Assembly: GCA_964036295.1 (NCBI GenBank)
Contig: OZ038462.1
Coordinates: 41,645,680 to 41,709,679, forward strand
Origin: Plumapathes pennacea
Taxonomy: Eukaryota; Cnidaria; Anthozoa; Antipatharia; Myriopathidae
Length of the DNA: 64,000 nucleotides
Reading direction: 5' to 3'
The translations under genes and the position numbers were made by a program. A model generated the notes under the pieces. That model had not been told where the DNA came from and did not search any database. It saw only the letters and a list, made by a program, of their open reading frames with translations. Positions within the stretch are counted from its first letter, which is position 1. Each line of letters begins with the position of its first letter. Positions 37,371 to 44,435 of this stretch are shown here, one piece after another.

Positions 37371-37633
37371 ATATATGTTAATATGATATACAATATAACT
37401 TGTCAACACAAAGCGAGACATAGCTGAAGCTGAAGCTGAAGCCTGAACTACTGAGGCTGACAAAGCGATTTTAACTTTGATGTTGAAAGGCGTTTCTGTG
37501 TTCAAATTTTCCGTGATAGTCGATAAGACGATAAGAAATTTTCCCGTTTACTCACACCTTTTATGATAGTCAACGATAGCTGCGATCTGTCAACTATCAT
37601 CAGCTATCATTCACCGTGTGATCGGGACTTTAA

Positions 37634-38600
37634 GAGGCAGTCTCTGTAAAAACCACCAGGTGATTTTTGCGTCAAAAATGGATTTCGCTAATTTTCCTCC
37701 CACAAGTCAAGGTTGATATGCAACTCAAGAATCTGAAGCCCTTTCGTCTGAAATATTTTTGTGTCCTCCGAAATCGAGCAAAATGACCTTGACCCCGTGT
37801 CAGCCATTTTGACGCCTGTCGGATTTCGAAAATTGGCAAAGTTCGGCCGGTCGCTTTGTCAGTAGTACAAGTTCTTCAACTTTAAGGTTTCTTTTATTTG
37901 AAAGAATGGCATCTGTTCTTTACATAGAAGTGTTCCAAATCTCAGTGCGTCAAATATCTGCAGAATACCAGGTCAATAGTCTGACCTACCTCCGACTACG
38001 TTTCACGATGGCATGTTTTGACCTTTTTCAAAATGTATTTAGCAAAAAGTGGGAAAGTTTTTTCTGAAGCAGTCTGCAGTAAATTAAATTTTAGGGTTTC
38101 ATCTACAAATATCTGCAATAAAAGCTTTTGGCCTCGATCTTCTTCAGTGTGCTATGAGCTTCTGAATATCATTAACTTCACACTTTTTGCAGTTACTTGC
38201 GCCCGTTTTTCGACTGTCACATTAAGCATTGTTAACCGCTGTAATCTAAACAAATGCCGTCTTATATGACTCTGAACAACTGATAAAGCTTGAACAGTGC
38301 ATGGGTACACAAAATTGTCCGTTTTCCGCCAGAATTTGAGTGTCAAATCTCTTAAATGATCGCGGATCACACATGCGACTACTGCCGCCGTCTACATAAA
38401 TATGTTTTCACACGCAAGAAAATACACACATGCACCTCTATATACCTTGCCTATATTTTCCCTGCATTTTATAGTATATCGAAGAAAGACGTTGTCATTC
38501 TTTCGTTGATGAATAATTTCTTCGTTAATTGATCGGCGACCGAATGACGTATCCTATTTTTAGATCAAATTGTAACGCAACCTGTTTTTCACAATTTTTG
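37634..38600 (+). repeat. Left terminal inverted repeat of the transposon
   Basis: Matches the reverse complement of 43470-44431, with scattered substitutions and small indels increasing towards the inner end. It is unusually long for a cut-and-paste element. A short open frame inside it is mirrored in the right repeat. Confidence 0.88.
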
Positions 38601-38633
38601 AAACTTTCCATTTGTGCGTTCACGTAATCTAGC

Positions 38634-41600
38634 TTACGCTTTGAAACAGGAACACGATTTTAGTTCATGTTCGATCTTCGCCACCAGGTCGGCTTTTTTG
38701 TCTCTTGACTTAAAGGAAATGTCAAAATGAGAACACATCTCTTTAAGTACTTTCACACTGAAGCTCTTCAGCTTATTCGTGCGGTAATACTCGCAAAGAT
38801 TGAATGAGCCATATTCAATGGGGTGCTTGAGAGACAGTTCTTGGATGACGTTTTTCAAAACGCACTGTTCACGTTCCATGAGTTCCTGGGCCAGGGCGTC
38901 TTCGCTGCATTGCTCCATCTCCTCATTGCCAACGTCGTCATCGGCAGTTTTTGGCCTTCGACGACTAGCAGCTAATCGCGAAAAGAACCCCTGGACTTGT
39001 GCCTTGTTCAACCATTCCTGTCTTTGAAACATTCTGTCACCACTCTCGTTTCTTGCATTCCTCATATCTGTTGCCACCTGCTGGGGATCTGCCTTGTGGC
39101 CCGTTTTCTCACCCAAATCAAAGCAGTCGTTCAGGTATTGCCTAACCTGCGGGGAATACCGAGTTGGTGCTGGTCGAGGCTTGTGCAGTGCCCAGCCCAT
39201 GGGACAGTGCGCAGCAATTGGTTGAGTACTAGACTCGCATCTTGTTTCCAGCGCATCTTTCTTCTTTTCTAAAGAAATTGTGGCGAATTTCTTGACCCAG
39301 TCTCTCTTCAAGGAGTCAAATATGCTCTCGCTTGAGGCAACGGAGTGGACGCCAACATCTTGGTGAGCTTCCAAATCTTGTAAGCGACTAAATGACCGTG
39401 TGCAAGCAAGCTCCGGACATTCGTACTGCACTACGCCGTCGTCAGTCTCCGCTATCTCCTTACTCTTCTGATGTAGTTCCCTGCGCAATAATGGCGGAAA
39501 AAATCCCTTGTCTTTCTCTGTGACTAGTGATGTTGGCCCCTGTGGCTTAGTCGTGATGTTCCCATACAAAATGAGTTTTCCTCTGCCAACTCCAAATGCT
39601 TTGCTAACTCGAATGCCGTTCTCTTCAAAGCCAAAATTGTGATATGAGCTGAATCCTGGGATTTTTTTCACCACAATCTCTTTTCTACTTTGGTCAATGT
39701 GGCCCACCGCGGCTGTCGTTCCTCTCACTGGTCGTTCGTGGAGGGCCTTTTGCATGTCTGATGCGGTGCGGATGTCATGACCTTCATTACAGTACCGCTT
39801 GATTGCCGCCTTCATTGGACACAAGATACGATCGCACATATCTTTTCCCTGCTGGGGCTCAGAGAAGTCGTACCTTTCCACTATAACACCATGCCTCTGA
39901 CCAATCCCTTGCATTGCTGCGATCAACTGATGGTTGTGGTAGCATCCAGCTTCGTCTGAACGCAGGAAGACTCTTTCAATGGATGGCTGTTCTTTCTTGA
40001 TGCACGATAGTAGGTGCTCTATGACGCTGGCCACGGCAAACCAGTCCTGGGTGCAACTGTCGAAAAGGTGGGCGTAAGTCAAGACTTCAGTGCTACCGGA
40101 TTCAGTTTTTGAGACGACACTTGAAATGTGCCAGTTTAGGCCACGTTTGCCGAACCAGTCGCTTTGCTTCTCTCTGTACTTTATTTGCAAAAACTTCATC
40201 GCCCAATCGACAAGTATTAGTACTGACTTGACGTCCAAGTTGTCCAGCACATGCTGCTTACTGGCTTCCTGATTGGCTGAACGAAGGATGTGCGCCTTCC
40301 ATGTAAAAACATGTTCTTTAGCTTGCTTGAGGTCATAAAGTAAGTCCTCCTTTTGCTCACTGGTATAGAAATTCGGTGCCATCTCTTCGATCTTGATTTC
40401 AATGCTCTCAAAGATGTTCTTGACACTTTCAGAACTGTTGCAGATTTCTCCGTGACTGTGATCGCATGCCTGCCGCAGATTGCTGTCTGTTGGATCGCTG
40501 AGGGCATAGTCTCGACAATGGTCAGCACACTGGCTTTGTGGCTTGCAGTGATCTCTGTAGGTTGTCTTGAGGTACCGCTTAGCATCACGTAGTTCTTTTC
40601 GGGTTTCTTCGGACCATTCCTTTAGCGCACCCACCCTCTGGAGTTCATCTACAACCTTGAGAACAGTCTCAAAAGCTTCCGAACCATCAGCTGCTGTGTT
40701 ATCAAGTCCCTTCAAGCTTGTGCGCTGTGATGCCTCCCTTACGCAGAGTATTCGGTATAAAGTCGCTCTGCTCAGAGGTGAAAAGTCCTCATCACTGCAG
40801 TACTTGAGGTACTGTGCTATTATAGTAGATCGCGTGACAGTGCGGATAATATTTGGCATCATAAGCTTTTCGCCACTTTCTAACTTGAGCGTCCGTGTGC
40901 CAAACGCCACGTCCTGGAAGAAATACGGGCGATCAGTAAATTCCAGGAAATGAGTTAGCTTCGTCATATCTATGGAAATGCGATGGTGTGGCAGCTTTTC
41001 AACAGTTGCTGCTATTCCGACGGTCGCTGCATGTTTCCTAGCTTGCCTCACTTGCCATTCTGTTATCTTCTCAAACTTCTCGTGCATCTGAAGCAGTTGG
41101 CTGATGCTGTATCGATTAGCATATATGCTGAGGATCTGTGTCTTCAGTTGCTTAGATGGTGCCTGTTTGTGTGCAGTCATCAGAGCTATCAGATCTGCGC
41201 TTACATCACTACATGTTGGTGGCCGCAGCATAGCATTAAACAGCATGTCAGGATCTTTGGGGGCAATTATGCTGCAGACGACGCGGCATGCTTCGGTTGC
41301 CTCTTCTGCGCACAGCTGTTTTTCTTGTTCCGTTGCTTCAGTCCATGTGGTGTTGAGTCTAAATGTTAGTTTGTTCGTTTTCTGGTATGAAGCATACTGC
41401 GAGATTTTCCCTATTGCATCATTAAATACTTGTAGAGTTATATCAGAGTTATCAACTTTAGCTGAAGCTTCCAAGGAATCATCTGATGAGCTAAAAGTTG
41501 CTTCACTGCAGCGCCACGCACCTGGAGTCCAGCCTTTACTGGAAAAAGATTGATCATTCGGCGATGGGGACTCTGCGGGGCTTTCAAGGTGTCGGGACGA

Positions 41601-43250: not shown

Positions 43251-43469
43251 TGCGCTGTGTTCGGGAATCAATTCCGCGCCCTTGTTTGCCAATAGAATCA
43301 GCTGAGTATTACTATCCCATTCCGGTTTTGTATTGAAAAAAAAATGTACCTCGCAGATTTTACTAGCAAATGACTATGATTTTTTTTTCCTTCCTGAATC
43401 TAAATATAGATATGCATCATCTACTGACCCACCTTTGGCACATCAGATCCTAATACGGTAAAACACAAG

Positions 43470-44431
43470 TTGCGTTACAATCCAATCTAAAAATAGACTG
43501 CGTCATTCTGTTGTTGACGTCTTGTCGCTGACAATTAACGGCGAAATTATTCATGCAGAGAAAGAACCACAATATGTTTCTTTGATATACTGTAAAATTC
43601 AGCGAAAATATCGGTAAGGTTTATAAAGGATGTGTATTTCTTGCGTGTAAAATGCATCTGTACTCTATTTATGTGGACGGCGGCAGTCGCATGTGTGGTA
43701 CGCGATCACTTAAGAGATTTGACACTCAAATTTTGGCGGAAAACGGACAATTTTGTGTACCCACGCACTGTTCAAGCTTTATCAGTTGTTCAGAATCATG
43801 TAAGACGGCATTTGTTTAGATTGTAGCGGTTAACAATGCTTAATGTGACAGTCGAAAAACGGGCGCACGTAACTGCAAAAAGTGTGAAGTTAGTGATATT
43901 CAGAAGCTCATAGCACACTGAAGAAGATCGAGGCCAAAAGATTTTATTGCAGATATTTGTAGATGAAACCCTAAACTTTAATTTACTGCAGACTGCTTCA
44001 GAATAAACTTTCCCACTTTTTGCTAAATACATTTTGAAAAAGGTCAAAACATGCCATCGTGAAACGTAGTCGGAGGTAGGTCAGACTATTGACCTGGTAT
44101 TCTGCAGATATTTGACGCACTGAGATTTGAAACAATTCCATGTAAAGAACAGATGCCATTCTTTCAAATAAAAGAAACCTTAAAGTTTGGGAACTTGTAT
44201 TACTGACAAAGCGACCGGCCGAAGTTTGCTAATTTTCGAAATCCGACAGGCGTCAAAATGGCTGACACGGGGTCAAGGTCATTTTGCTCGATTTCGGAGG
44301 ACACAAAAATATTTCAGACGAAAGGGTTTCAGTTTTTTGAGTTGCATATCAACCTTGACTTGTGGGAGGAAAATTAGCGAAATCCATTTCTGACGCAAAA
44401 ATCACCTGGTGGTTTTTACAGAGACTGCCTC
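43470..44431 (-). repeat. Right terminal inverted repeat of the transposon
   Basis: Reverse-complement partner of 37634-38600. It contains the likely promoter side of the transposase gene, which reads leftwards from 43250. Confidence 0.88.
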
Positions 44432-44435
44432 TTAA

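Follow-up and report, generated by a model that had tools for sequence, protein, structure and literature searches.

Introduction

Transposons of the Sola3 group prefer the tetranucleotide TTAA as their target site, and the Sola superfamily with its Sola3 group is said to have been described by Bao et al. in 2009. Where PMC10741241 outlines the superfamily, its members have an aspartate triad (DDD), a 4-bp target site duplication (TSD), a length of mostly 2–9 kb, and terminal inverted repeats (TIRs) of 11–1,124 bp. The superfamily is also treated in PMC4455052, and Sola-3 elements are among the annotations of Acropora corals mentioned in PMC12314368. TTAA is the TSD given for Kolobok elements as well (PMC9587614), which are further characterized by 5′-RR/YY-3′ termini, a C/DxxH motif that lies past the second D and before the last acidic residue, and a THAP domain (PMC9587614, PMC6004289). 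A 2020 paper presents piggyBac as the only eukaryotic DNA transposon for which both specific integration at TTAA and seamless excision are known (PMC7351741). Here we describe a 6,798-bp element in a 64,000-nucleotide stretch of the Plumapathes pennacea genome (contig OZ038462.1, positions 41,645,680 to 41,709,679; hereafter the window). This element is likely to be an autonomous DNA transposon that moves by cut-and-paste. Its lineage, specific for TTAA and equipped with a DDD transposase, most plausibly belongs to the Sola3 group.

The insertion, its ends, and its empty site

The transposon occupies positions 37,634–44,431 of the window and has the ends GAGGCAGTCTCTG and CAGAGACTGCCTC. These ends sit exactly inside two copies of TTAA that form the TSD, one at 37,630–37,633 on the left and the other at 44,432–44,435 on the right (neither the element nor its TSD is assigned a strand). 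The left TTAA is followed by GAGGCAGTCTCTGTAAAAACC, and the reverse complement of the left end stops at 44,431, directly before the right TTAA. The left TIR (37,634–38,540, plus strand) is ~907 bp long, and the right TIR occupies 43,524–44,431 on the minus strand. The two arms align over 907–922 bp with 92.6% identity when gaps are counted, and an ungapped part of 758 bp reaches 96%. A preliminary description of this DNA, made from the letters alone, had put the repeats at ~0.96 kb; they are long and similar as claimed, but slightly shorter.

The same target site is found unoccupied in a second place. The region from ~37,174 to 45,519 is a duplicate of 50,078–51,711, and this duplication is surrounded by repeated gene blocks at about 30.8, 34.6, 45.6–47.7, and 60.5 kb (the label of membrane genes comes from the preliminary description only). 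The left flank of the transposon (37,174–37,629, plus strand) is paralogous to 50,078–50,551, and the right flank (44,436–45,519, plus strand) to 50,557–51,711. When the insert and one TTAA are removed, the joined flanks align to 50,078–51,547 without a break at the single TTAA at 50,553–50,556 (no strand assigned), as seen both by alignment and by self-BLAST. The claim that an insert of 6,798 bp splits a duplicated sequence at TTAA therefore holds for the ends, the TSD, and the length, as does the claim that the empty site is kept in a paralogous duplicate. This TTAA insertion is cleanly documented: its ends are exact, its gene is unbroken, and an empty twin of the site is preserved.

Copies across the genome

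The genome searched was that of the source animal itself (290 Mb, 24 contigs). An exact pattern search with the 18-bp end gave 94 genomic copies, 81 of them with TTAA directly before the end, and the reversed control pattern gave no genome match. Further copies with the same ends, which the preliminary description had proposed looking for, are thus present. We fetched 20 loci with paired ends, the window copy among them. The pattern used to choose these loci contained TTAA, and for this reason the TTAA beside them cannot count as independent evidence. What does count is the 81 of 94 ends, a corresponding 16 of 17 in a related family, C, and the family C and D boundaries, which were found by similarity. 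Twelve single-ended matches were also examined (four fetched by the search and eight more).

The paired-end copies include two subfamilies. In subfamily A, the window copy, L024, L026, and L027 are near full length, and L009 and L011 are internally deleted; its members are ~95%–98% identical to the window copy in pieces longer than 400 bp. The TIRs of subfamily B are ~75%–78% identical to those of subfamily A, and two of its members, L020 and L022, retain most of the transposase gene at 79% nucleotide identity. Three copies were examined for captured genes: L015 and L010 have no open reading frame (ORF) of at least 150 amino acids, and L025 has one ORF of 262 amino acids without a significant Pfam match.

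Several of these copies interrupt sequences that are found intact elsewhere. The joined flanks of L024 with one TTAA match across the junction at 40 of the 41 places listed, with 96%–100% identity (best 40 of 195 candidates); this copy lies in a high-copy repeat of which many copies are uninterrupted, and it is judged young because the listed copies of the repeat are so nearly identical to its flanks. L015 and L026 occupy two TTAA sites, separated by 36 bp, in different copies of one repeat, and each repeat copy is unbroken at the site used in the other. L019 splits a 59-bp satellite at a TTAA that is also present in the other monomers. L009 adjoins L010 with a single TTAA between both, and therefore one must have inserted into the target duplication of the other. 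For the flanks of L012, no place spanning the junction was found among the matches listed (best 40 of 481 candidates). Overall, the sequences lend good support to cut-and-paste transposition at TTAA accompanied by deletion derivatives.

Some copies of the ends have other surroundings. At C4 22.0–26.4 Mb, the transposon end occurs in 12 single-ended copies that are all on the same strand. Three of them were examined (L029–L031); these have common flanks at ~97% identity, and for this reason they look like copies of one amplified segment rather than separate insertions. At C6, an element end with transposase recurs every 17.58 kb (16,279,108, 16,296,687, and 16,314,265), apparently as a tandem triplication. 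The flanks of L012, L013, and L014 (C2:17.46–18.53 Mb) are 97.8%–99.6% identical on one side, with one copy inverted, and probably represent a segmental duplication that included the element. L036 is a rearranged copy in which pieces of the TIR are folded back on each other.

The transposase gene

The transposase gene lies on the minus strand and appears to be better modeled as three exons than as one frame. Modeled exon 1 (42,857–43,250) begins with ATG, encodes the Cys/His motif C..H..NLG..W....C.YP.H, and ends at the donor GTAAGT. Modeled exon 2 (42,428–42,548; acceptor TTTTTTAG, donor GTGAGT) supplies a C..C motif, and modeled exon 3 (38,634–41,505) would encode the catalytic core and the C terminus, with the stop codon at 38,634–38,636. 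A 946-amino-acid ORF at 38,634–41,474 lies inside modeled exon 3. When joined, the three exons give 1,128 amino acids with no internal stop. L010, L016, L020, and L022 share the position of the exon 1 donor, and family C has a recognizable exon 1 (32% identity, E 5e-16); from exon 2, 24 residues are found in subfamily B at 62%–67% identity. The putative intron 2 contains an AAT microsatellite (41,705–41,933) and a TTTC microsatellite (42,136–42,203), neither assigned a strand. The gene had previously been called intact, which is correct in that the frame is unbroken, although the three-exon model fits better than the single frame.

A search of the genome with the 946-residue query gave 53 matches (the best 48 of 749 candidates were scored), and among these the window copy is the sole match that is open over the whole query. 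Twelve of the 53 listed matches, the window included, extend over at least 850 residues without a stop, and 10 of these 12 have 37%–50% identity. Purifying selection on the transposase gene is evident at the level of sequence. The ratio of nonsynonymous to synonymous substitution rates (dN/dS) against subfamily B is 0.20 (L020), 0.19 (L022), and 0.19 (the partial L013), and against L024, L026, and L027, all of which have stops or frame changes, it is 0.55–0.72.

Toward the C terminus, the product contains a C2H2-like zinc finger (39,354–39,425, minus strand) that falls below the Pfam cut-off and a weak HeH/SAP-like stretch (38,679–38,723, minus strand; Pfam HeH E 0.17). The best match of the lineage profile in the PDB is 1jjr, near its C terminus (E 5.8e-4), which we take to be the SAP domain of Ku70.

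Conserved aspartates and related families

Nine transposase sequences were aligned, two of which (L020 and L022) are fragments. Exactly three aspartates are invariant in all nine, and the spacing between the last two is 37 residues in every sequence. In the 1,128-residue model, they are D605 in VDWAMK (40,206–40,208), D689 in RSDEAGCYHN (39,954–39,956), and D727 in GKDMCD (39,840–39,842), all encoded on the minus strand. D727 is a better candidate for the third ligand than D730, since the latter is N in L037.

Two more distant families are likewise users of TTAA. Family C has a transposase 38% identical to that of the window copy, ends of the form TTAA|GTGTCATTGTCAG, TIRs of 575 bp, and a length of 6.6 kb; TTAA accompanies its exact ends in the 16 of 17 cases given above. 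Family D has a transposase 49% identical, ends of the form TTAA|GAGGCTGTCTCTGTAAAAACC, TIRs of ~995 bp, and a length of 7.6 kb. Two copies each of families C and D are flanked by TTAA, and hence all four branches examined (A, B, C, and D) use TTAA. The termini start with GA in A, B, and D and with GT in family C.

None of the nine members has a Pfam transposase domain, nothing significant was found for the transposase in NCBIfam or PHROGs, and no homolog was confirmed in viral contigs, prokaryote genomes, or plasmids. The lineage profile has 10 matches in the PDB, and no PDB transposase was matched by sequence.

Taken together, these features suggest a mechanism in which the three-exon gene would yield a transposase of 1,128 amino acids. 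DNA, including that of the TIRs, might be bound by the Cys/His domain at the N terminus and by the zinc-finger and SAP-like parts at the C terminus, and a predicted RNase H-like core containing D605, D689, and D727 would excise the element and join it to TTAA. Cuts staggered by 4 nt, followed by gap repair, would leave a TTAA at each end. Deletion derivatives that retain these ends were presumably moved in trans. We infer the catalytic role of the triad, the binding of DNA by the terminal domains, the mobilization in trans, and the splicing.

Classification of the element

The element resembles the described members of the Sola superfamily in several respects. Three aspartates are invariant in the nine aligned sequences, consistent with a DDD triad whose catalytic role and fold are predicted. 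There is a 4-bp TSD, which here is TTAA and is accompanied by empty sites. The TIR (~907 bp) and the element (6,798 bp) are both inside the ranges that PMC10741241 gives in its outline of Sola. Families C and D, with the TIRs and lengths given above, also fall inside these ranges. The modeled three-exon gene and the N-terminal Cys/His domain are features of the window element, Sola3 being compared by description only. In the literature on Sola3 and TTAA, we recognized no paper that describes the present elements. We file the element as Sola3-like, as what is most likely a new member of a known but little-studied lineage, with a membership that is anatomical and not proven.

Several points weigh against this assignment. 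The Sola3 membership is a matter of anatomy, with the element set beside Sola as the superfamily is described. Thirteen of the 94 exact ends lack an exact TTAA. The splicing pattern is a model, with a short exon 2 that is only partly conserved in subfamily B, and the RNase H-like fold of the core, like the activity of the transposase, is read from sequence.

The explanation that survives best beside Sola3 is that these elements form an undescribed TTAA-specific DDD superfamily, neither Sola3 nor any other. This would account for the lack of relatives in Pfam, NCBIfam, PHROGs, plasmids, viral contigs, and prokaryote genomes and of any PDB transposase matched by sequence. However, the libraries searched are not known to cover Sola, and the anatomy agrees with Sola as outlined in PMC10741241. 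We regard this explanation as unlikely. In its fullest form, it would describe a superfamily in which strict TTAA targeting arose independently of piggyBac, with a Cys/His N terminus and a SAP-like tail, which is still active in this genome and possibly scar-free in its excision; that picture, too, we hold to be rather unlikely.

Membership in the Kolobok superfamily is considerably less probable. The TTAA duplication and the RR start (5′-GA) of families A, B, and D agree with what PMC9587614 says of Kolobok ends, but the related family C starts with GT, which is not RR. None of the nine transposases has a C/DxxH in the interval from the second invariant acid to the third. Past the second acid the motif occurs only once, near the C terminus of L038, and in the window protein it is found only at residues 73, 498, and 520, all before the first invariant aspartate. 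Furthermore, the third acid is D rather than E, and no THAP domain was found in Pfam scans.

Order of insertion and duplication

The age of the insertion can be compared with that of the duplication it interrupts. In a comparison of four near-full copies, 47 substitutions in 5,723 columns (0.8%) are private to the window copy, a count that omits element positions 4,060–4,580 (microsatellites) and columns gapped in any of the four. Its distance from the five other copies of subfamily A is 2.0%–2.8%, and pairwise distances within these six copies are 2.0%–3.0%, apart from L009/L011. The duplicate flanks differ by 8.5% on the left and 7.6% on the right, corresponding to Kimura two-parameter distances of 0.091 (434 bp) and 0.080 (1,072 bp), respectively. 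Because 0.8% private substitutions stand against a flank divergence of 8%–9%, the element is younger than the duplication, and therefore no loss from the second block is needed. The insertion is later than the block duplication, which settles the choice between the two orders that the preliminary description had offered. The window copy entered one block of the tandem gene array after duplication, and the other block never had the element.

The opposite order, in which the element predates the block duplication and was later excised seamlessly from the second block, is highly improbable. The exact empty site is what seamless excision should leave, and piggyBac, which also uses TTAA, is stated to excise in this way (PMC7351741). 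However, an element older than the duplication should bear ~4% changes of its own and hardly an open frame, whereas the window copy shows 0.8% private substitutions and 2.0%–2.8% difference from subfamily A copies against the 8.5% and 7.6% of its flanks. Searches with the flanks of L012 and L024 and with the paralogue found no young duplicate that had lost an element in this genome; they scored the best 40 of 481, 195, and 626 candidates, respectively, and none bears on excision.

That the element is itself a piggyBac-type transposon has a very low probability. The TTAA target and the DDD triad are shared (PMC7351741), but the long TIRs and the ends starting with GAG are different, all nine members are without a Pfam transposase domain, and none of the 10 chains that the profile matches in the PDB is from piggyBac. 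Thus, no sequence relation to piggyBac is detectable by Pfam or by PDB profile search. A TTAA user that is unrelated to piggyBac by detectable sequence and that has intact genes and near-identical recent copies would let the link between TTAA targeting and scar-free excision be tested directly.

Nothing was found in favor of an assembly artefact or a collapsed duplicate, and this explanation can be dismissed almost completely. The end has 94 genomic copies, and many elements that share these ends lie at unrelated sites, several of them with empty sites of their own.

TIR arms and recent movement

The similarity of the TIRs had been taken as a sign of recent mobility. We tried it as a clock and rejected it, since a copy's own two arms resemble each other no more closely than they resemble the arms of other copies. 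Over the outer 720 columns, identity is 95.8%–97.4% between the arms within a copy, 95.8%–97.2% between opposite arms from different copies, and 96.7%–99.8% between same-side arms. Over the inner 195 columns, left and right arms within each of the six subfamily A copies are 81%–85% identical, and same-side arms are 95%–100% identical between copies. Same-side arms are closer than opposite arms across the whole repeat. Because outer arms within a copy are no closer than those between copies, there is no sign that the arms were identical at insertion.

In the repeats of subfamily A, the two arms are nearly as alike over their outer 720 bp as same-side arms between copies, and over the next 195 bp left and right differ strongly in each of the six copies. 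All six copies have 25 fixed differences between left and right, of which 24 lie in alignment columns 731–933 and one in the outer 720; for the outer part, the case against a clock is therefore the equal likeness of arms within and between copies. Homogenization of the outer arms is possible.

Recent movement is shown instead by near-identical sequences at unrelated sites. Two family C copies at unrelated sites are 99.2% identical. Two family D copies, also at unrelated sites, were compared on either side of the last exon and are 98.8% identical upstream of it and 97.8% identical downstream. L009 and L011 differ by 0.25% substitutions over 3,163 bp, and no match between their flanks was listed.

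Surroundings of the insertion

The sequence to the right of the TTAA, at 44,432–44,712 and at 50,553–50,846, is a dispersed repeat that starts with AGGCCTTGTTTACATGG and contains, further along, a similar stretch in inverted orientation. When the 534-bp paralogue was searched against the genome (best 40 of 626 candidates), only the paralogue itself was matched in full among the matches listed. Its left half matched only the window's other copy, and its right half accounted for 38 of the 40 listed matches at 81%–87% identity, 21 of which begin within a few bases of the TTAA. The target TTAA of the transposon may therefore be at the edge of another, smaller transposon.

The window also contains two tRNA-Cys(GCA) genes (2,613–2,684 and 6,411–6,483) that are 3.8 kb apart. 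A short dispersed repeat is present at 7,489–7,749, 16,266–16,525, and 51,668–51,823 with 92%–98% identity, the third copy being partial and inverted. Tandem repeats are found at 28,511–28,772 (52/104 bp) and 30,475–30,784 (104 bp). At 55,321–56,566, a 120-bp unit is repeated 10 times in tandem with an 84% match; we presume that these units perhaps correspond to TPR repeats of a protein.

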